This document shows, one piece after another, positions 44,597 to 55,454 of a stretch of DNA of 64,000 nt. The stretch is from assembly GCA_900317155.1 (NCBI GenBank), contig ONFO01000022.1, forward strand, positions 1 to 64,000. The letters are read 5' to 3'. Position numbers and translations under genes: made by a program. This DNA is from an uncultured Bacteroidales bacterium (GTDB lineage: Bacteria > Bacteroidota > Bacteroidia > Bacteroidales > F082). Position 1 is the stretch's first letter. Each line of letters starts with the position of its first letter. Below the pieces are notes generated by a model. That model ran no database searches. It was not told the origin of the DNA and was given only the letters and a program-made list of their open reading frames with translations.

Positions 44597-46108
44597 ATGG
44601 CAACAATACAAGAGAAATTGGCGGAGTCATTGGCGGTGTTGAAGGCATATCAGGACGCCCACGGGGACAATCTGGTGATTCAAGGAGCGGACACACTAGG
44701 ACGGACACATACAGAACGGTTGGTGAACAGCGGATACCTTCAGATGGTCATGAAGGGATGGTATATCCCGTCATCGCCAGGGAGCGAGGGTGATTCAACG
44801 GTGTGGTATGTGTCGTACTGGCACTTCATTACGGCTTATTTAGACAAGAGATTCAATGGGGCTTGGTGCCTGTCGCCGGAGCTGTCACTCTATTTCCACA
44901 GCGGGAAGACGGTGATTCCCAAACAATTGATTGTGCGCTGCGAGAACGGAACAAACAACATCCTGCAACTGCCTTTCGGAACTTCGCTTGTGGACATCAA
45001 GGCAAGCCTTCCGCCAGAGGTGATACGGGAGCCGCGTTATGGCGTGCGATTGTATCCCATGGAATATGCCTTGTTGATGGTGGGACCGGATTATTATCGC
45101 CGTGATGCGTTGGAGGCAAGGACTTGTCTGGCCAGCTTGCGCGATGTCTCGCCCATCGTCTTGGCGGCCATCGACGGAGGACATACCACCCGGGCGGGTC
45201 GCGTGGCAGGTGCGTTGCGCTCCATCGGACGCGAGGAGATGGCTGATGAGTTATTGCGTATGATGCGCCAAGTGGGGCATACCGTGACGGAGGAGAATCC
45301 GTTTGAGGAGAATATGCGGATAGCGACATTTGTGGAATCGCCATACGCATCGCGTATCCGCTTGATGTGGATGCAGATGCGGAAGGTGGTAATAAACACG
45401 ATAAAAATCCAGCCAGTACAGCAAGATGCGGCATCGGTGCTGGCGATGATGGATGCAACGTATGTTAAGGACAGCTATAACTCCTTGTCGATAGAAGGCT
45501 ATAAGATTACGGAAGGTCTGCTAGAGCGTGTTCGGAGTGGCAACTGGGATCCTGAGAAAAACGAGGAGGACAAGGAACGCAGGAATGCTTTGGCCGCCCG
45601 TGGATATTATCAAGCATACGAATTGCTGAAGCAAGGCGTAAAGGAATGTTTTTCGGGCAAGGCACCTGCGCAGTTGTATGTGAAAGGGCATCAGGACTGG
45701 CACTTTCAGTTGTTTGAGCCATGCGTCAGGGCAGGCATAGTGAAGGCATCGGATTTGATAGGATACCGCAGGCATCAGGTATATATCCGGAATTCCATGC
45801 ACACGCCATTGAATCCTGACGCTGTGTTGGATGCGATGAGTGCCTTGTCGGATTTGATGATGGAAGAGGAGAACGCGTTGGTGCGTGCCATTTTAGGGCA
45901 TTTCTTCTTCGTTTATATCCATCCCTACATGGACGGCAACGGACGCACGGCGCGTTTCGTGATGAACAGCCAATTGGTGACGGCTGGTTACCCCTGGGTA
46001 GTGGTTCCCGTGGCACGCCGACAGGAGTATATGGCGGCATTAGAACAGGCCAGTGTGGAGGGAAATATTGAAGGGTTTGTGAGGTTTATTGGGAGGGAGA
46101 TGGGATAA
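44597..46108 (+). CDS. Fic protein with AbiEi-like N-terminal domain
   Basis: A 503-residue fusion. Residues 1-180 resemble the AbiEi-type antitoxin: a winged-helix-like start (NSGYLQMVMKGWYIPSS) and GAWCLSPELSLYFHSG. The C-terminal half is a Fic domain with catalytic motif HPYMDGNGRTAR beginning at H442, so it should transfer AMP or another nucleotide monophosphate to protein hydroxyls. An inhibitory helix of the S-x-x-x-E-G type is visible N-terminal to it (NSLSIEGYKIT, about 298), placing it among self-inhibited class II Fic proteins. A DNA-binding head on a self-inhibited toxin, behind tandem operators, suggests autorepression (inference). Confidence 0.85.
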   Translation: MATIQEKLAESLAVLKAYQDAHGDNLVIQGADTLGRTHTERLVNSGYLQMVMKGWYIPSSPGSEGDSTVWYVSYWHFITAYLDKRFNGAWCLSPELSLYFHSGKTVIPKQLIVRCENGTNNILQLPFGTSLVDIKASLPPEVIREPRYGVRLYPMEYALLMVGPDYYRRDALEARTCLASLRDVSPIVLAAIDGGHTTRAGRVAGALRSIGREEMADELLRMMRQVGHTVTEENPFEENMRIATFVESPYASRIRLMWMQMRKVVINTIKIQPVQQDAASVLAMMDATYVKDSYNSLSIEGYKITEGLLERVRSGNWDPEKNEEDKERRNALAARGYYQAYELLKQGVKECFSGKAPAQLYVKGHQDWHFQLFEPCVRAGIVKASDLIGYRRHQVYIRNSMHTPLNPDAVLDAMSALSDLMMEEENALVRAILGHFFFVYIHPYMDGNGRTARFVMNSQLVTAGYPWVVVPVARRQEYMAALEQASVEGNIEGFVRFIGREMG

Positions 46109-46210: not shown

Positions 46211-49200
46211 TTAACAAGCATCATCATTGTTACTTGAGTTGTTTTGTTCCGTCAAAGTGCCTCCGTTTTTTACGAATAGATAGTTTGATATGAATGTCTG
46301 ATAACATTTTACTATGCGCTCTTTCGAAATATTTTTATTAACATTATTCTTTTTAGTATACTCTATTAATGCTAGAGGTATCAGGCTTTCCGTATGTTCT
46401 GATACATATTTTCGAACATCATCAATAGTTGAGCCTATTATATCCGATGTGTACAAGGAAAAATCAAACAATCTTGTAAATGGCGATATTATTCTCAATC
46501 TACCTATTTGTTCTTTACCTTCTCCTTTATCAATCACGGCCAAATCAACATAATCTTTAATGGCTAAATAAGATTCTCTGAATTCATCATAGTATTCATT
46601 TTCCATGTACATCATGTGATATTTCCATAAATTAGCACAATCAACTACAGATGCAGCGTCTTTTCCCTTTTTTGCAAAGAAATAAAGGCGTTGACCATCT
46701 TCCATGAATACGAGTTTTTCTAATACCTTATCACGCGCAAATATCTCCTTCAAATAATAATTTGTTATTATAATGCAATCATTGGTGTTTTGCAAAATCT
46801 TTTCTGTAATTTTCTCTTCTCCTTCAGAATTATATAAAACAGCAATCGTATCTGCATTTAATAACTTTTGAAGAATCACTTGTTTTCGTCCCTCTTGTGC
46901 ATATGATTTTGGCAATTTGAGGTTGAGCAAATATGTTGTTTCATTATAACAGTAGCCTAATCTTATACAGGTTAGAATATAATGCAAATATTGCAAATCT
47001 AATAATGCATTCTCATTACTAGTATTATTATGAATTCTTTTCTCAAATTCATTTTGAATGGGAGCAAAAATCATCGGTAATACTTTATCAAACAGCAACC
47101 CTTTTATAGTGAAAAAACCTTGTAGAGTTATATTATCCCTTGAAATATCAACAATTTTATCACTCGCTTCACTATATAAATCCCAAGAAAGTGTGGATAA
47201 ATCTAAATCAGAAATCAAATGTTCTGCATTTTTCACAGCAACACCTCTTACAAGAAACTGAACACCATAGGAATATCTGGGGACATTTGTGGTTTCGTTA
47301 AAAGAAATAGAAACCCTTGACCCAACCTCACTTTCAATAAAATGAAATCTTAGAATGTTTTTGTCAACCTCACTGCTCATTTTATATTTCTCTTGACAAG
47401 AATCAAACTTAGGAAATCGCAATGATAACGTTTCTATTGCTGCACCTGGGTTTACCGAATGGTAAGATAATTTGTTTGTTCCATTAGTATTAAATGTAGA
47501 CGAAACATAGGCATCAATCATAGAAATATATTTGTCGTCATTATCATTCAAAATACTATCAATTTGACTCCTAATCTCCCAACGACACTGGTCATCATAT
47601 AATGTTTTAAAAAGACTTCGATTGATCTCTACAGTCACACGTGTACCACGACTAATATCCGTTCCATACTCCAAAATTGTACTATATTGACCATGTTCCG
47701 CTGATCTAAAAAGTATTCGTTTCGACTCTTCTCCGATACATTTTGTTTCCACAATAAAAGAATCAGCAACAAAGAAAATAGATTGCAAACCGACCCCAAA
47801 AGTTCCCGTCGGCTTTAACCAATATGGTATATCTTTATCGATTCTATTTCTGTTGCTTTCTCCAACTTTCTGAGTCATGTGCAATAATGACTCTTCTGAA
47901 ATACCTGTTCCTTTATCTTCACAAATAACAACTATTGTATCTTTATGATCGTTTTTCCATCGGACAGTTAAATCTATTGGATATTGATTATATACTTCAG
48001 TTGGAATGTCATCTGGGAACTGCAAATCTGATAGTTTTTTCCCATTTAACGCATAAGAATGTGTTCCCATACGGATATCATTGCACAACTGAATATTACT
48101 TGCATCAAACGCATTTTGCACCATTTCTCTGATAAAAACAAAGCCAGGGTCTCTATAGATGCCGCCCCCTCTAAGAATATTAAAAATCTTCTGTTGTGAC
48201 ATCGTGAATTTAAGATTCATCAACTCCGGCTTCACTTTCAAACCATTAAATAGAATCTTTATATTTCCCTTACTAATCATTGGCGGCAATCCACTTAAAT
48301 CTTCAGGTGCTATATTTGACCATTCTCTACTTTGAAAGGACACTTCGTCTTCCAGCCAATCAAACCATTTCCTAGCCACTCTATATACAGCATCTGACTT
48401 ACAGTTCAATTCTGCTTCTATTGAGGTGGGAGATACCAACATGTGTCGCACTGAAGAATGTTTCTCTTTATGCATCGCTGAAGTGTCTGGAATTTCCTTG
48501 AGCAATGCAAGTGAGTATTCATCAAATCTATCACTATCAAAATCCAATAGATCACCTAATCGGATCATACATGCTATAAAACGAGGATGAATATAATCCC
48601 CCTTCCATCCATCGGCCCTTTGGTATAATTTTTCCATTACTTCAGTCGATGATGCACCATGCAAATAAGCTACGGCTGCTAACATATCCATATATCGTCG
48701 TGGTAGTTTTTCTGCATGGAAGCCCGAAGCTAATTTTGAGAATTCATCTTGCCCTGACAAATGAGAACTTCCCATTAATGCGTGATTTCCTCTACAAATC
48801 TCAGATGTTATTATTGTCACAGCATTTTTTACATCCAACGCCCAAACTAAACTGTTTTCATCCTCTTTTGTAAATGATTCTCCTCTTTTTAGAATTAGTT
48901 TTGCAGCATCAGAAATTACCTTATCTTCATTTTGTGATAAACGTTCAACAATTTCTCTTATTTCCTCGCTATTCCATACTTTTTCAATCATTCTATATGT
49001 CAAAATCATACCAACATCATGTGTCAGTCCCGCCATTAACAACAAAAAAGTATCTGTTGCTCCAAGTTCTTTTATACGTTGTTCTCCAAGGAAGCATTGT
49101 ATCTTATCAATTATTTTATTTGAATGGGTTATACCATGGTCACTAAAATGAGGATAATTACTTTTTATTGTAGCCAATCCTTCTTTTAAATTCGAACGAT

Positions 49201-49291
49201 TTAATTCCCAAATTGAAGCTAAAATATCATAATCATGGTCTTCTGATGCCAGCGTTTTAAGATGTTTTTCAAGTGTATAGTTTTTATCCAT
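46211..49291 (-). CDS. HD-domain plus GHKL-ATPase protein
   Basis: A 1026-residue protein. The N-terminal third is an HD-type metal hydrolase-like domain: HFSDHGITHSNKI (H52, H56), AGLTHDVGM (H91-D92) and a later RLGDLLDFD. The middle is a GHKL (Hsp90/MutL-like) ATPase: FIREMVQNAFDASN (N box), CEDKGTGISEESL (D-x-G-x-G), GTFGVGLQSIFF and SRGTRVTVEI. The C-terminal 350 residues are unassigned. It may be a nucleotide-sensing defence ATPase, given its place beside restriction genes; this is inference. The gene is visibly AT-rich relative to both flanks, suggesting recent acquisition. A single gene with its own -7 element at 49352. Confidence 0.8.
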   Translation of the reverse strand: MDKNYTLEKHLKTLASEDHDYDILASIWELNRSNLKEGLATIKSNYPHFSDHGITHSNKIIDKIQCFLGEQRIKELGATDTFLLLMAGLTHDVGMILTYRMIEKVWNSEEIREIVERLSQNEDKVISDAAKLILKRGESFTKEDENSLVWALDVKNAVTIITSEICRGNHALMGSSHLSGQDEFSKLASGFHAEKLPRRYMDMLAAVAYLHGASSTEVMEKLYQRADGWKGDYIHPRFIACMIRLGDLLDFDSDRFDEYSLALLKEIPDTSAMHKEKHSSVRHMLVSPTSIEAELNCKSDAVYRVARKWFDWLEDEVSFQSREWSNIAPEDLSGLPPMISKGNIKILFNGLKVKPELMNLKFTMSQQKIFNILRGGGIYRDPGFVFIREMVQNAFDASNIQLCNDIRMGTHSYALNGKKLSDLQFPDDIPTEVYNQYPIDLTVRWKNDHKDTIVVICEDKGTGISEESLLHMTQKVGESNRNRIDKDIPYWLKPTGTFGVGLQSIFFVADSFIVETKCIGEESKRILFRSAEHGQYSTILEYGTDISRGTRVTVEINRSLFKTLYDDQCRWEIRSQIDSILNDNDDKYISMIDAYVSSTFNTNGTNKLSYHSVNPGAAIETLSLRFPKFDSCQEKYKMSSEVDKNILRFHFIESEVGSRVSISFNETTNVPRYSYGVQFLVRGVAVKNAEHLISDLDLSTLSWDLYSEASDKIVDISRDNITLQGFFTIKGLLFDKVLPMIFAPIQNEFEKRIHNNTSNENALLDLQYLHYILTCIRLGYCYNETTYLLNLKLPKSYAQEGRKQVILQKLLNADTIAVLYNSEGEEKITEKILQNTNDCIIITNYYLKEIFARDKVLEKLVFMEDGQRLYFFAKKGKDAASVVDCANLWKYHMMYMENEYYDEFRESYLAIKDYVDLAVIDKGEGKEQIGRLRIISPFTRLFDFSLYTSDIIGSTIDDVRKYVSEHTESLIPLALIEYTKKNNVNKNISKERIVKCYQTFISNYLFVKNGGTLTEQNNSSNNDDAC

Positions 49292-49410: not shown

Positions 49411-49418
49411 TATCTTTG
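49411..49418 (+). promoter_or_regulatory. -7 element of the methylase operon
   Basis: TATCTTTG on the plus strand. If used, the mRNA carries a leader of about 218 bases containing the structured element at 49508-49642. Confidence 0.45.
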
Positions 49419-49507
49419 CACCCATAAACCAACAAAAACACCCAACATATCGAACAAACAAAATAGAACATAACTAACATATTATAAAAGCGTTTTCGCT
49501 CTAACTT

Positions 49508-49642
49508 GCCTACTTGAAGTTCCACAAACAAGCCAAGCAATAGTATAGCGGTAAACGCCTACGAGTAATCGTGGGCTTTACTTACTTGCTTGGCAGGTCG
49601 TGGAACACCTAAGTAGGCGTAAGAAAAGTTCCACGATTTTTT
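49508..49642 (+). promoter_or_regulatory. Structured leader with switchable hairpins
   Basis: Outer stem: 49508-49540 pairs with 49586-49618 in three perfect blocks of 8, 7 and 9 base pairs. Inner hairpin: 49551-49581 (GTAAA/TTTAC, GCC/GGC, ACGA/TCGT, loop GTAA). Alternative hairpin: TCGTGGAAC (49598-49606) with GTTCCACGA (49628-49636), followed by six T directly before the ATG. TCGTGGAAC cannot be in both, so the RNA can form either the long stem or a terminator-like hairpin. Confidence 0.65.
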
Positions 49643-50293
49643 ATGCCAAGCAACGAAAACACAACACAAATCAAAAGCCGCCAAAGGGTGGCTGACCATG
49701 GCGAGGTGTTCACCAATCCGCGCGAGGTGAACGCCATGCTTGACTTGGTGCGCGACGAGTCGTTTCGGCTCGACAGCCGCTTTCTTGAGCCTGCCTGCGG
49801 TGACGGGAATTTCCTTATCGAGATTCTGCGCCGCAAACTCTCTCTTTTGAATGACATCAAAACCCCAACCGAGTGGGAGTTCAAGAGCCTGATCGCCGTA
49901 GGCTCCTGCTATGGCATTGACATCCTGCCCGACAACGCCGAGGCTTGTCGTGAGCGGTTGTTTGCCGAAGTGATTGACCAAATTGGCAAAAAGGGCTGTA
50001 CAAACGGTTACGAAAAAAGCCTCAGATACATGCTGCAAAAGAATATCGTCTGCGGCGATGCGCTGACCTATCGTACTGCCGAGGACAAGCCCATCACTTT
50101 CTGCGAGTGGACACCCATCGCGGGCAGCATGCAGTTCTCGCGGCGCGACTTCCAGTTTGATTTCCTTGTCACAAAAAACCACCAGTACAGCCTCTTCGAC
50201 GAGCAAGGCGAAGTGCAAAGTTTTGACGAGCCTGTGCGTACCTATCCCCCATTGCATTACACTCAACTTTACCGATATGAAGAACAACTATAG
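49643..50293 (+). CDS. DNA N6-methylase, N-terminal-type subunit
   Basis: A 216-residue S-adenosylmethionine-binding protein. Motif I is RFLEPACGDGNFLIEIL (about 45-60) and CYGIDILPDNAEACRERL follows as the acidic motif II strand. NIVCGDAL is motif III-like. The catalytic NPPY is absent; instead the chain ends with FCEWTPI and a basic strand. It therefore looks like a half-methylase that pairs with the next gene product, with which it overlaps by 17 bases. GC-rich, unlike the HD-GHKL gene. Confidence 0.75.
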   Translation: MPSNENTTQIKSRQRVADHGEVFTNPREVNAMLDLVRDESFRLDSRFLEPACGDGNFLIEILRRKLSLLNDIKTPTEWEFKSLIAVGSCYGIDILPDNAEACRERLFAEVIDQIGKKGCTNGYEKSLRYMLQKNIVCGDALTYRTAEDKPITFCEWTPIAGSMQFSRRDFQFDFLVTKNHQYSLFDEQGEVQSFDEPVRTYPPLHYTQLYRYEEQL

Positions 50294-51830
50294 CCCCGAC
50301 ATCCTCAATTGCTTGGCCAATCTGAGCAGCGATGAGGTCTTCACCTCGCCCGAGTTGGCTAACCGAATGCTCGACCTGCTGCCACAGGAGTTGTTCCGTT
50401 CCAGCAAGACGCGCTTTCTTGACCCTTGCAGCAAGAGCGGTGTCTTCCTGCGCGAGATTGCCAAACGACTGCTGACTGGGCTGGAAGAGCAGATTCCCGA
50501 CTTGCAACAGCGCATCGACCATATTATGACCAAGCAAGTCTTCGGCATTGCCTGCACCGACCTCACCGCCGAGATGAGCCGCCGCACGCTCTATTGCACC
50601 AAGCAGGCCAATGGTGAGTATAGTGTGGCCACCTGTTTCGACGATGCGCAAGGCAACTTGCGCTATATGCGTTGCCAACACACTTGGGAGAACGGCAAGT
50701 GTAAACATTGTGGGGCCAACCGAGCCCAATACGACCGCATAGAAACTATCGAGACCTACGCTTATCCATTCATTCACAAAGATATAAACGAAATCTTCAA
50801 AAACATGCAATTCGATGTAATTATAGGAAATCCGCCGTATCAGATGGGAGATGGAGGAAATGGTGCGAGTGCGCTCCCTGTTTATCATAAGTTTATTGAA
50901 CAAACAATAGAGCTAAAGCCAAAGTATATGATTTTTATAGTTCCTGCTAGGTGGCTTAATGGTGGACGTGGATTAGATGATTTTCGAAAGAAAATGTTGG
51001 AAGATTCAAAGATTCGTGTTCTCCATGACTATCTTAATTCGACAGATTGTTTTTCTGGCGTTGAGATTAAAGGAGGAGTTTGTTATTTCCTTTGGGAAAA
51101 GGACTATAAAGGGATCTGTAGTGTATACACCCATAACCAAGATAATGTTTATCATTCTGAAAGACCGCTGCTTGAAAATGGAGCAGAAATCTTCATTAGA
51201 AGCGAAGAACAAGTGACTATATTTCACAAAGTTCTTGCTAAACAAGAAGAATCTTTATCAACATGGTTAAATGCTGGTAGATACTTTGGCTTCCATACAA
51301 AAGTAGAGTGGGTCTCTGAAACTGAAGGGAAAATACAGTCAGCTGATGGTAAAGCGTTCTATCCAATTAGAAAGGTTAGAAATGACATATTCTCTACAAA
51401 AGTGTATGTTCATGGCGGGCAATGTTGGATTTCGCCCAAAACTATACCAAGGAATGCCCATAGAATCTCTTCATATAAGGTACTTATTCCAAGATCGGGA
51501 AATCCTGGATTTGGAAATACAATTATTGGTAAACCAAAAATATCAGAACCTAACTCTTGTAGTTCTAATACATACATGGTTGCTATTCCTCCACAAGCTG
51601 ATATGTCTATTGGTGAAGCAACTAATCTTTGTTCATATTTGAATACCAAGTTTGTCCGTCTATTAGTAGCAACAAAAACCTCTACACAAAGTACACCTCC
51701 AGATGCATTCGAATTTGTTCCTTTACAAAACTTCTCCCACCCCTGGACAGACGAGATGCTATACAAGAAATACGGCTTGGACAAGGACGAAATTGCCTTT
51801 ATTGAGAGTATGATTCGCCCAATGGAATGA
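50277..51830 (+). CDS. Eco57I-type DNA adenine methylase/specificity protein
   Basis: A 517-residue methylase. Motif I is TRFLDPCSKSGVFLREIA (about 46-62); the catalytic motif is FDVIIGNPPYQM with NPPY at 185-188. Between them lies a zinc-ribbon-like CQHTWENGKCKHCG. The C-terminal half would hold target recognition. Start ATG 50277 lies inside the preceding gene. Base composition changes sharply within the gene: GC-rich to about 50770, AT-rich to about 51730, then GC-rich again, as if the catalytic and recognition core had been swapped. With the GIY-YIG helicase behind it, this looks like a restriction-modification system. Confidence 0.8.
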   Translation: MKNNYSPDILNCLANLSSDEVFTSPELANRMLDLLPQELFRSSKTRFLDPCSKSGVFLREIAKRLLTGLEEQIPDLQQRIDHIMTKQVFGIACTDLTAEMSRRTLYCTKQANGEYSVATCFDDAQGNLRYMRCQHTWENGKCKHCGANRAQYDRIETIETYAYPFIHKDINEIFKNMQFDVIIGNPPYQMGDGGNGASALPVYHKFIEQTIELKPKYMIFIVPARWLNGGRGLDDFRKKMLEDSKIRVLHDYLNSTDCFSGVEIKGGVCYFLWEKDYKGICSVYTHNQDNVYHSERPLLENGAEIFIRSEEQVTIFHKVLAKQEESLSTWLNAGRYFGFHTKVEWVSETEGKIQSADGKAFYPIRKVRNDIFSTKVYVHGGQCWISPKTIPRNAHRISSYKVLIPRSGNPGFGNTIIGKPKISEPNSCSSNTYMVAIPPQADMSIGEATNLCSYLNTKFVRLLVATKTSTQSTPPDAFEFVPLQNFSHPWTDEMLYKKYGLDKDEIAFIESMIRPME

Positions 51831-52165: not shown

Positions 52166-54660
52166 ATGCAGACGATAGACCAGATACTTCCTAACGAGCG
52201 GCGGACGATACCGCAGATTTACATGTACGACGACACATCCTTTCCAGGATGGATTAAGATAGGACAAACCACCCGCGCCGATGTGCGGAAACGCATTGAT
52301 GAACAACACCCCATCACCGAGCCACACAAGACCTACCACCTTTTGTGGCACGACAATGCTTTTTATGCCGACGGCAGCGGCGAGAGTTTCAGCGACCACG
52401 ACCTGCACGAATGCTTGCGCCGCATGGGCAAGGAACTCATCGGTGAGTGGTGCCGTTGCTCGCTACGCGAAGCACAAGCAGCCTATATGGCCGTGCGTCA
52501 CCGCGACACACAGGTGAAGACGGATCGTGACCTTGACTACAAGATGCGCGACGAACAAGCACAGGCAGTAAAACAAACCGCCGACTACTTCGCCAAGATG
52601 GACATAGAGGAACCTAACCGTCCCAGCCATTACCTTTGGAATGCCAAGATGCGTTTCGGCAAGACCTTCGCCACCTATCAACTCGCCAAACGGATGGGTG
52701 CCAAACGTGTGTTGGTGCTCACCTTCAAACCCGCCGTGGAAGACTCGTGGCGCGACGACCTCTTGCGCCACCGCGATTTCGAAGGCTGGCGGTATTACAG
52801 CAGTCGCATGGATGAAGAGTTTCCTTCATTGTCCTCGCCCAAACCATTGGTGGTGTTTGGTTCGTTTCAAGACTATCTCGGCAGAGACCGTTACGGTAAC
52901 ATCAAGCCCAAAAACGAGTGGGTGCATTGTGTCAATTGGGATTTGATTGTGTTGGATGAGTATCATTTTGGGGCCTGGAACGACAACGCCAAGAGCCTTC
53001 TCGACCTTGGGGATGCCGATGCCAAAAAGCGACAGACAGAAGAGGACGAGGTGATGACAGAAAGCGGCATCGATGTGGAAAGTGGTCGCGCTTGGGACGA
53101 CGAGGATGTGCCCATCACTGGCAACCATTACCTCTACCTCAGCGGTACGCCGTTCCGAGCATTGGCCACTGGCGAGTTTATGGAAAGTCAAATCTTTAAC
53201 TGGACTTATCAGGACGAACAGGCACGGAAAGAAGCAGTTGGCGGTCCCTATCTGGAGATGCCCACCATGGTGATGATGACCTACCAGATGCCGCAAGACC
53301 TTGGAGCCATGATTGAGCAATGGGACATGGATGGCTTTGACCTCAATGAGTTTTTCCGCGCAGAAGGAAAGAAATTTGTTCATGAAAAAGCCGTCCAAAA
53401 ATGGCTCGACATCATCCGTGGCAAAGCCTCCATGTGCGACCTGCTCTGCCATTCGAGGACACCCGTCTGCTTGACCTCTGCGCCCACACGATGTGGTTCC
53501 TGCCCAATGTGGCCTCATGCGATGCCATGGAAGCACTGCTTCACCGTCCGGCTAACGGATTCTATCAGAACTACACCATCATCAACTGTAGCGGCACCAA
53601 GGCAGGCATCGGAATTGATGCCCTAGGACCAGTGCGTGAGGCTATGGGCGACAACCCTTTGAAAACACGCACCATCACGCTGACATGCGGCAAACTGACC
53701 ACAGGAGTAACGCTGCGTCCGTTGGGAGGACTGCTGATGTTGCGTAACTGCTCTAGTCCCGAAACCTACTTTCAGACGGCTTTCCGTGTGCAAAGTCCAT
53801 GGACGGCCACCGACAAGGACGACCCCACGAAGCATACGATTCTCAAACCCACCTGTTATGTGTTCGACTTCGCACCCAACCGTGCCCTGCGCGAAATGGT
53901 GACCTACGCCAACCAGTTGGATGTGGACAGCAACCGTCGGATCACTGACAAAGTAGATGAGTTCATCAACTTCCTGCCTATCCTTCAGTTTGATGGCAGT
54001 TCCATGAAACGGGTTGATGCCACCGAGATACTTGATTTCGTTGACAATGGCACCAGTGGAACGTTGCTTGCACGTCGTTGGAACAGCGCACAATTAGTCA
54101 ATGTGGACAACGCCACCCTGCAACGAGTGCTTGACAATCCCGAGGCATTGGCCACCATCATGAAGATTGAAGGCTTCCGCGCCTTGGGTAGCGACATCAT
54201 CGAAAACATCGTGAACCGAGCCGAGAAAATCAAGAAGTTGAAACGAGAAGCGGGCGACAATAACGACCCCAAGAAGAAGAAAGAACTCACTGCTGAGGAG
54301 AAAGAATACCGTTCCAAGCGGCGCGAGGTGCAGGAAAAACTGATGAAATTCGCCACCAGAATCCCCATCTTCATGTACCTCACCGATTATCGTGAAGAAA
54401 GTCTGGAAGATGTCATCCGCAAACTAGAACCAAGATTATTTGAGCGCGTCACAGGCCTCACCATCGACGACTTCAACCTGCTTTTGAGTGTCGGTGTCTT
54501 CAACCGCGCCCAAATGAACGACGCCATCCTGAAATTCCGCCGCTACGAGGATGCCTCATTAGAATACACTGGCGTAAACCGCCACGCCTCCGACACGCGC
54601 ATCGGCTTGATGGACAGCACCGTGCCGATTGAGGCGATGCTGGGGAGTGGAATGGGGTAA
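52166..54660 (+). pseudogene. GIY-YIG nuclease/superfamily 2 helicase, frameshifted
   Basis: With one base restored the gene encodes 831 residues. Residues about 15-65 form a GIY-YIG-type nuclease (PQIYMYDDTSFPGWIKIGQTTRADVRKRI). The helicase follows: Walker A NAKMRFGKTFAT (162-167 core), LIVLDEYHFG (about 265), LYLSGTPFRAL, then after the break TLTCGKLTTGVTLRPL and TYFQTAFRVQSPW (motifs V and VI). It would be the DNA-translocating restriction subunit. The frame breaks at 53447-53450: CTGCTC-TGCCATTC reads correctly if CC were CCC, so one C is missing from a short run. It may be a sequencing indel, a true null, or phase variation. The stop at 53624-53626 truncates the first half. Confidence 0.8.
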
Positions 54661-54753: not shown

Positions 54754-54863
54754 CAGATTGTCGTCAGAGGGCGCGAACAATTTGCTTTCGCAGCATTATT
54801 CAAGCTGGACCTTTCTGACCCCCATATGAGGACATAGCCCCAAAGGTTATGTCCTCAGTTTTT
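54754..54863 (+). ncRNA. Candidate structured small RNA
   Basis: About 110 bases from promoter to terminator. Stems: GTCAGA (54763-54768) with TCTGAC (54814-54819) closing a domain that contains GCGAA/TTCGC (54773-54777, 54787-54791) and CAGC/GCTG (54791-54794, 54804-54807). The end is an intrinsic terminator: GAGGACATA (54828-54836) with TATGTCCTC (54848-54856), then AG and TTTTT. It is not tRNA, tmRNA or SRP-like in sequence. Its terminator overlaps the stop codon end of the convergent gene 54847-55359. Confidence 0.55.
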
Positions 54864-55359
54864 CTATTTCATCCTCTATCTGGTTTTTTACTGTATCCTT
54901 GTCAGAAACGGCAAATAAATCGGGCTTTACGACAACAGCCTTGCTGTTGTGAACTACATAACATTCGTTGATGTTACCACTCGTAAAATCCTCATGCCTA
55001 CCATAAAGACCCGAAGCTATCTTTTTGGTTTTGAGTATGCTTTCAGCCATGTGCATATCAAAATCGAGCACCACAGTCTGGCAACCTTGTTCTTTGGCTT
55101 TGCGAAAGGCAGATTTAATTCCGTTTTCACTTTCTATGCCTTTTCTATCACCAAGTTTCTCATTGATGGTATACTCTGGATTCTTATGGCCAAAAACCAG
55201 CAAATGCTCATTAATACGAATATTCATGTCGGCAAAGCAGCCAAGTAGCACCCTTGCCACACGAATGTTTTCAACAAGTTCTGTTTGGTCAGCTTGCTTG
55301 CTAATCAATAGCCGTTCACCATAAATCTCATCAACTAGAAAATCCTCTATTCTAAACAT
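54847..55359 (-). CDS. Orphan CDI-type (BECR-fold) RNase-like protein
   Basis: A 170-residue protein resembling the C-terminal tRNA nuclease domain of contact-dependent inhibition proteins. The usual order is present: a helix of acidic and basic residues (KQADQTELVENIRVARVLL), NPEYTINEKLGDRKG, the segment ENGIKSAFRKAKEQGCQTVVLDFD, and a strand SKAVVVKP. It stands alone, without the large exported carrier or an obvious immunity gene. ATG 55359 is used because the -7 element ends five bases upstream. Its stop overlaps the terminator of the convergent small RNA. Catalytic activity is not proven. Confidence 0.6.
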   Translation of the reverse strand: MFRIEDFLVDEIYGERLLISKQADQTELVENIRVARVLLGCFADMNIRINEHLLVFGHKNPEYTINEKLGDRKGIESENGIKSAFRKAKEQGCQTVVLDFDMHMAESILKTKKIASGLYGRHEDFTSGNINECYVVHNSKAVVVKPDLFAVSDKDTVKNQIEDEIEKLRT

Positions 55360-55363
55360 GGTG

Positions 55364-55393
55364 CAAAGGTAAAAAGAATTGCGAGAAGTGCAA
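55364..55393 (-). promoter_or_regulatory. Promoter of the CDI-type gene, leaderless
   Basis: TTG (55391-55393), 19 bases, TACCTTTG (55364-55371) on the minus strand. Only four bases separate the element from the ATG. Confidence 0.65.
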
Positions 55394-55454
55394 TAACTGT
55401 ATCTGCACGAGAAAATAAAGAACAGATAATTGATGTTCATTACAATATCAAATG

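Follow-up and report, generated by a model that had tools for sequence, protein, structure and literature searches.

The window analysed in this study is a stretch of 64,000 nucleotides from an uncultured Bacteroidales bacterium. A structured leader RNA copy occupies its positions 49490 to 49642, between a promoter-like box and the start of a methylase gene at 49643 (Table 1). Behind the leader, an MmeI-like methylase fragment, an Eco57I-type methylase gene, a small ORF and a region with T5orf172 and ResIII helicase matches follow one another on the same strand, and from their spacing and strand the methylase and nuclease-helicase genes appear to form one operon. The last region is covered by two overlapping frames in the window; single ORFs of 855 and 842 aa stand at a similar place behind the methylases of two related loci (L009 and L033, respectively), and the split frames may represent a broken gene or an assembly error. 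On the other side of the leader lies a divergent gene of 1026 aa (46211-49291) with HD-CE and HSP90-like ATPase matches, adjoined by a Fic gene (44597-46108), and these two genes may mark a defence island. A small gene on the minus strand (54847-55440) gave a weak CdiA_C domain match, at the curated cut-off.

Table 1. Features of the leader and of the genes behind it in the window
Feature	Position	Strand	Partner or remark	Basis
Promoter -7-like box TATCTTTG	49411-49418	+		Sequence; similar box often upstream in relatives
Strand 1 (W) GCGTTTTCGCTCTAACTT	49490-49507	+	Strand 2	Own-versus-swapped tests; step-by-step folding
P1, 5' side	49508-49515	+	49611-49618; 8 pairs in the window	Double changes at every pair of a seven-pair block
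PA, 5' side GTTCCAC	49519-49525	+	49600-49606; 7 pairs	PA covariation
PB, 5' side GCCAAGCAA	49532-49540	+	49586-49594; about 9 pairs	Co-varies in methylase leaders
Strand 2 (Y)	49543-49564	+		Competing-pairing tests
Strand 3 (Z) ATCGTGGGCTTTACTTAC	49568-49585	+	Strand 2 (putative antiterminator) or strand 4 (putative terminator)	Swap tests
PB, 3' side TTGCTTGGC	49586-49594	+	Alternative partner: coding sequence 49645-49653	Covariation
Possible hairpin hpB, AGGT..ACCT	49595-49610	+	PA 3' side (49600-49606) in the loop	Closing test
P1, 3' side	49611-49618	+		P1 covariation
Strand 4 (Y2) GTAAGAAAAGTTCCACGA	49619-49636	+	3' arm of the putative terminator	Energies, swap tests
U-run touching the start codon	49637-49642	+		Family-wide U-run count
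Gene 1, MmeI-like methylase fragment	49643-50293	+		Pfam PF20473, E 9.8e-06 (below curated cut-off); PADLOC MTase_II, E 1.7e-10
Gene 2, Eco57I-type methylase	50280-51830	+		Pfam PF07669, E 2.8e-34
T5orf172 and ResIII helicase region	52166-54660	+	Two overlapping frames (52166-53626, 53401-54660)	ResIII just below curated cut-off

The consensus of the Bacteroidota -7 promoter box is TAnnTTTG, and the box of the window implies a transcript start near 49425-49427. Among the 126 of 130 family copies that have at least 300 nt of upstream sequence, TAnnTTTG was present within 120 nt upstream of the RNA in 97, compared with 8 of 126 control stretches. Because of this enrichment, transcripts probably begin 5' of the structure, and the promoter box speaks against starts further downstream.

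The 218-nt leader of the window folds at -64.9 kcal/mol, compared with -36.2 kcal/mol (sd 3.8) for 200 shuffled sequences, none of which folded as well (z -7.5). An earlier note on this DNA had described an outer stem with blocks of 8, 7 and 9 pairs around an inner hairpin, and these blocks (P1, PA and PB) are present as described, enclosing a hairpin at 49557-49576. The same note had pointed to a segment of the right arm, TCGTGGAAC (49598-49606), as complementary to GTTCCACGA, which lies within strand 4 (49628-49636) and is followed by TTTTTT and then by the ATG at 49643; this was confirmed. Within strand 2, two parts with different partners were distinguished, AGCGGTAAACGC (49547-49558) pairing with strand 1 and GCCTACGA (49557-49564) pairing with strand 3.

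Two covariance models, to which alignments A4 and A5 were fitted, were built: R1 from 37 leaders and R2 from 76 copies. A sequence that went into a model matches it by construction; most of the genomes matched in the phylum survey, as well as the divergent methylase loci, lay outside these training sets. By DNA search the leader was found in 6 of 60 genomes (the window's own genome included). Of 393 genomes sampled from the order, 104 were found to contain the RNA (R1), as were 61 of 395 sampled across the phylum (R2) and all 60 of the genus, where a genome has between 1 and 26 copies; the own genome is counted in each of these surveys. The own genome gave 7 matches at E <= 0.001, and another copy in it (L121) sits before an EcoRI-type methylase. 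A total of 80 methylase loci were gathered by a search with the Eco57I-type protein, and 66 of them carry the RNA in the orientation of the methylase. R1 gave high scores at 39 loci, and R2 added 27 of the 41 that were left, at E <= 0.01; for these 27, the methylase is expected to start 37-207 nt behind the RNA at 19 loci and about 1 kb behind it at the other 8. The other 14 loci gave no R2 match at E <= 0.01, and some of their contigs end close to the gene. Similarity searches of the leader against plasmid and phage DNA gave no match. Tandem RNA copies were noted in single leaders (L131, 1001-1167 and 1383-1551; L118, 1501-1650 and 1280-1449 on the minus strand), and L081 has an apparent second copy, as judged by eye.

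Across the alignment of 98 copies, 92.9% of cells are paired in the long-stem form, which has double changes at 27 of 31 pairs, a level reached by 0 of 500 shuffles, and a one-base slide of the partner destroys the signal. The seven-pair block of P1 is 97.8% paired and PA is 99.1% paired in these sequences, with all four Watson-Crick types in each and with double changes at every pair of the P1 block. Since the alignment had been fitted to the long-stem structure, an own-versus-swapped test was also employed, in which two strands taken from one copy are compared, by their duplex energy, with strands exchanged among copies. For the main set of 89 copies (the 98 rows with nine methylase rows removed), this test gave z -37 for P1, z -21 for PA and z -35.7 for PB, and two controls with mismatched strands were null (1166/3000 and 2336/3000). 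The fold and covariation check that the earlier note had proposed therefore came out in its favour, with massive compensating changes in homologous leaders. An additional closing stem, P0, formed by the A-rich 5' and U-rich 3' flanks, was tried and rejected (1618/2000 in the methylase set and weak elsewhere, 31/2000).

The same test was applied to the strands numbered 1 to 4. In the 89 non-methylase copies, 1:2 (z -11.8), 2:3 (z -13.3) and 3:4 (z -16.8) were each reached by 0 of 3000 swaps, the test ignoring relatedness among the copies; of the pairings that were not predicted, 1:3 was marginal (z -1.7, 130/3000) and 2:4 gave 2263/3000. With wider windows, for which 128 of 130 copies were parsed, the 36 methylase leaders again gave 0/3000 for each of 1:2, 2:3 and 3:4, relatedness being ignored here too, while 1:3 was null (1409/3000) and the 2:4 control was unclean, with a small effect (39/3000). 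A strand 1:strand 4 outer helix, which occurs in single-sequence folds, was discarded at 2900/3000 in the refined test on the 89 copies; an apparent 1:4 signal in the wider-window test was obtained with windows that contained P1 letters. At the level of sequence, covariation demonstrates the P1/PA/PB stem together with the pairings 1:2, 2:3 and 3:4. The mutually exclusive forms and the attenuator logic proposed by the earlier note are borne out to the extent that the competing pairings co-vary in homologues, with column counts for 1:2 and 3:4 that are only modest: the columns of 1:2, 3:4 and the hpB closing pairs were 90.9% paired compared with 88.5% in shuffles, and they held 62 double-change cells compared with 26 (0/500) and 10 double-change pairs, a number reached by 50 of 500 shuffles. 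Modest counts would be expected if conserved strands serve two partners, yet they are a real limit.

Part of strand 2 is echoed in strand 4 (ATAAG, then CCACG), so the two would compete for strand 3; as strand 4 also precedes the U-run, 3:4 looks like an intrinsic terminator and 2:3 like its antiterminator. In all 113 copies that could be parsed (of 130), strands 3 and 4 close on each other when folded by themselves, at a mean of -24.3 kcal/mol compared with -19.4 kcal/mol for swapped tails, and at least 5 T occur in the first 6 nt behind strand 4 in 100 of 107 parsed copies (of 110). The earlier note had placed the terminator in TCGTGGAAC:GTTCCACGA. That pairing exists in the window, but the stronger candidate terminator is strand 3 with strand 4 (49568-49585 with 49619-49636), at -25.7 kcal/mol alone compared with -14.0 kcal/mol; as a general terminator TCGTGGAAC:GTTCCACGA was rejected, being missing, by eye, from six subtype-2 methylase leaders, and the family-wide tests were made on 3:4. 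In stepwise folding of the window transcript, 1:2 belongs to the lowest-energy structure when the transcript ends at 49570 and is replaced by 2:3 at 49590. For the full leader, energies calculated without pseudoknots were -82.2 kcal/mol for the long stem, -71.5 kcal/mol for the form with the start masked and -57.2 kcal/mol for 1:2 plus 3:4; because the long-stem form is so much more stable in this calculation, the terminator form would need kinetic or factor help.

Conserved letters flanking PA (GAAA/TTTC and GGT/ACC) can close two small hairpins that carry PA in their loops. The 5' side of PA can form the loop of one of them (hpA, closed by CTTG/CAAG), for which the closing test gave 0/3000 with a cap applied for duplexes without energy. 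For hpB the closing test gave z -5.3 (0/3000), and its closing pairs are 92.3 and 96.4% paired in aligned copies. This arrangement suggests that a loop-loop contact between the PA-carrying hairpins may nucleate the long stem.

In the methylase subfamily the start codon may itself be part of the switch. Type-1 leaders, defined by the GTTCCAC motif in PA, repeat these letters in strand 4, so that the stem's right arm, TTGCTTGGC..TCGTGGAAC, is able to pair with strand 4 and the first codons; in the window, the alternative partner of the right arm extends beyond the T-run into the coding sequence, where GCCAAGCAA recurs at 49645-49653. The 36 methylase leaders were reduced to 26 distinct segment pairs (20 type-1 and six subtype-2) for a test of the bases behind the ATG. 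These bases co-vary with PB: at least 7 pairs are formed in 15 of the 20 distinct type-1 leaders, with 14 different segments, a level reached by 8% of swapped pairs. The other 5 keep fewer than 7 pairs, two of them at most 4, and the pairing was found in 0 of 6 leaders of the second subtype. In a set of 30 leaders, from which six unparsed subtype-2 leaders, L001, L002, L016, L081 and duplicates were excluded, the pairing of PB with its 5' copy and that with the post-ATG bases were each reached by 0 of 5000 permutations, L068 and L007 failing the post-ATG test individually. Since the post-ATG bases co-vary with the same stem, the methylase start can be masked, and type 1, in which one co-varying strand is shared between the two pairings, can thereby add a second, translational switch.

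Away from the Eco57I-type methylase, a same-strand ORF starts within 450 nt of the RNA in 85 of 94 copies, at a median distance of 66 nt and at 20-130 nt in 68 of the 85. When only ORFs of at least 150 aa are counted, a same-strand start lies within 450 nt in 69 of 94 copies, compared with an opposite-strand end in 3 of 94 as a control. A hydrophobic N-terminus was found, by a crude measure, in 51 of the 85 downstream proteins. Pfam analysis of ten downstream proteins returned BspA-type repeats, a C10 peptidase and a TonB plug domain among other names, and that of 45 downstream proteins returned sorting domains, LytTR, sigma-70 and CsgG among others. A set of ten proteins gave ResIII with SNF2 and PLD, HSDR_N, EcoRI methylase twice, GmrSD, HNH with EVE, and RmuC, no family being assigned to one of the ten; as they were chosen for their DNA-related look, they give no rate. 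PADLOC on the 45 others gave two weak matches only. One copy is followed by a first ORF that resembles, by eye, a reverse transcriptase (L182, 1595-2551, minus strand). At L007 (1462-1499) and L008 (1624-1650), type-1 copies stand before a lipoprotein-like gene, and the stretch behind the U-run resembles, by eye, what is left of the beginning of the methylase gene, as though another gene had taken its place downstream. Short elements recur, again by eye, in the first 40-60 nt after the RNA and before the start codon (L106, L108, L109, L112 and L117; L166, L168, L170 and L179), some TTTGGG..CTG-like and others TTATTCTTAGCA-like before large TonB-receptor-like ORFs; they are possibly a second regulatory part. 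The earlier note had imagined that the leader delays or senses expression when the locus enters an unmethylated host. This role is not supported, as the RNA also precedes genes for BspA-type surface proteins, a C10 peptidase and a TonB receptor as well as several further restriction genes, and as the nuclease-helicase genes follow in the same apparent operon, where attenuation would probably reduce restriction and modification together.

Attenuators of the trp type form the exclusive pairings 1:2, 2:3 and 3:4, and a leader peptide over strand 1 sets the switch. The new RNA resembles them in its three overlapping exclusive pairings, in the U-run after strand 4 and in a strand 1 that can free or capture strand 2, a hairpin directly followed by a U-run being present as far as the letters can tell; it differs in having an extra co-varying P1/PA/PB stem that joins the two halves and many unrelated target genes. 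No conserved leader peptide was found: among copies with a promoter box, 4 of 27 before the methylase and 35 of 74 elsewhere have an ATG ahead of the point where strand 1 ends, and short ORFs over strand 1 (GTG and TTG starts uncounted) occur in 2 methylase and 17 other copies and are not conserved. In its predicted pairings the RNA functions as a trp-type attenuator would, yet the lack of a conserved leader peptide sets it outside that class. Expression platforms of riboswitches use one strand common to the ON and OFF helices. The new RNA likewise places one strand in both and occurs in tandem copies, but unlike riboswitches it has almost no conserved unpaired base: 42 of the 44 columns conserved at 85% or more fall in the switching helices or the U-run, and 2 of 44 lie outside, a pattern that speaks against a classical aptamer.

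Rfam 15 at gathering score gave no match to the window, and 31 loci (13 plus 18) gave only DUF805 twice in L116 and two tRNAs. With permissive settings every match stayed below its threshold, and two of these matches overlap an RNA copy (ryfA, opposite the window leader on the minus strand, 16.4 bits against a threshold of 80; L20_leader in L109, 23.7 bits against 58.7). The two DUF805 RNAs (RF03081) of L116 lie at 1698-1763 and 2662-2730, the first just downstream of a new RNA copy; this family is also cis-regulatory, but has 68 positions and a separate sequence and was met at one locus of the 31 plus the window. As far as the accessible part of PMC11697453 goes, FopS consists of a single-stranded 5' stretch and a terminator hairpin and acts on mRNAs in trans. 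FopS/GibS and the new RNA are alike multicopy Bacteroidota families with SusC-type genes among those concerned, whereas the new RNA is predicted to be a long bistable leader in cis. The candidate RNAs from the human microbiome in PMC8040213 include, in the part available, palindromic and terminator-like ones in Bacteroidetes, one of them near tonB, and those that are named measure 80-132 bp; identity of the new RNA with a listed or unnamed candidate of this set is possible, the two being set apart by description and not by alignments. No description of the RNA was found in the accessible parts of PMC11697453 (FopS), PMC12255303 (RptR), PMC8040213, PMC7366714 and PMC7160235, nor in the wider literature as far as titles and abstract openings tell. 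By the searches made, the RNA belongs to no Rfam 15 family and appears uncatalogued.

We consider it likely that the leader acts in cis as an attenuator RNA and belongs to an uncatalogued family that spans the Bacteroidota. During transcription, strand 1 would first capture strand 2. In the ON form, strand 3 would take over strand 2 and the P1/PA/PB stem would close, perhaps nucleated by contact of the two small hairpins with PA sequences in their loops, leaving strand 4 free while RNA polymerase continues. In the OFF form, strand 1 would retain strand 2, and the hairpin made by strands 3 and 4, with about 17 pairs and U6 behind it, would stop transcription before the operon. Leaders of the methylase subfamily could, in addition, hide the AUG by pairing the 3' side of the P1/PA/PB stem with strand 4 and the first codons. 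Since almost no conserved base lies outside the switching helices, the likeliest regulator would be a protein, a trans RNA or transcription speed rather than a small metabolite. A bolder version, to which we give somewhat less than even credence, is that a phylum-wide bistable leader, with as many as 26 copies in one genome, acts as a four-strand attenuator, closed by a loop-loop contact within the RNA, and so subjects surface proteins, TonB receptors and restriction genes to a common cue, and that in the methylase branch the enzyme's first codons became a switch strand.

Other readings of the same data were weighed against attenuation. The leader might be a translational switch only, with the start codon free or masked and the U-run serving as an unstructured ribosome landing site. 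All 36 close methylase leaders have their ATG no more than about 8 nt from the RNA end, the post-ATG bases co-vary with PB, and the masked form is 14 kcal/mol better than the 1:2 plus 3:4 form, but most other copies with an ORF (68/85) end 20-130 nt before it, distant methylase loci start at least 37 nt behind the RNA, the second methylase subtype lacks the post-ATG pairing (0/6), and strand 4 and the U-run are kept across the family, which makes this reading unlikely. A metabolite riboswitch with an unrecognised aptamer we regard as quite unlikely: although competing strands like those of an expression platform are common to many gene classes and tandem copies occur (L131 and L118), just 2 of the 44 highly conserved columns lie outside the switching helices and the U-run, no pathway common to the downstream genes is evident, and there was no Rfam riboswitch match.

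The promoter box, the terminator-like hairpin of all 113 parsed copies, the multiple copies per genome and the possible loop-loop contacts would also suit a free-standing small RNA that acts in trans from its own promoter and terminator, nearby genes being read by leak-through. The strong excess of long ORFs on the same strand (69/94 within 450 nt, against 3/94 on the opposite strand), the retention of the RNA in the same orientation at 66 of 80 methylase loci and a pairing with downstream coding sequence that is in cis render it very unlikely. An element of the DNA level, a mobile repeat or recombination site whose symmetry only resembles RNA folding, is hardly credible. Its copies would indeed be multiple and palindromic, as observed, and restriction genes adjoin some of them; however, compensating changes at 27 of 31 stem pairs include G-U pairs, stem sequences vary among copies while pairing is kept, the promoter box stands on the 5' side and the gene on the 3' side, and a closing terminal inverted repeat is unsupported in the methylase set and weak elsewhere.

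The family-wide finding exceeds the original observation at the methylase locus. As a candidate, the RNA may be a general on/off control of surface-protein and restriction genes, and the family makes sharp predictions on transcript ends. If attenuation is right, a phylum that is dominant in the gut and the environment has a sizeable family of regulatory RNAs that had escaped cataloguing, surface proteins and restriction systems would be linked to one common signal, restriction-modification would gain a layer of control besides protein regulators, and the methylase branch would be a clean case of a coding sequence evolving to remain complementary to its own leader.
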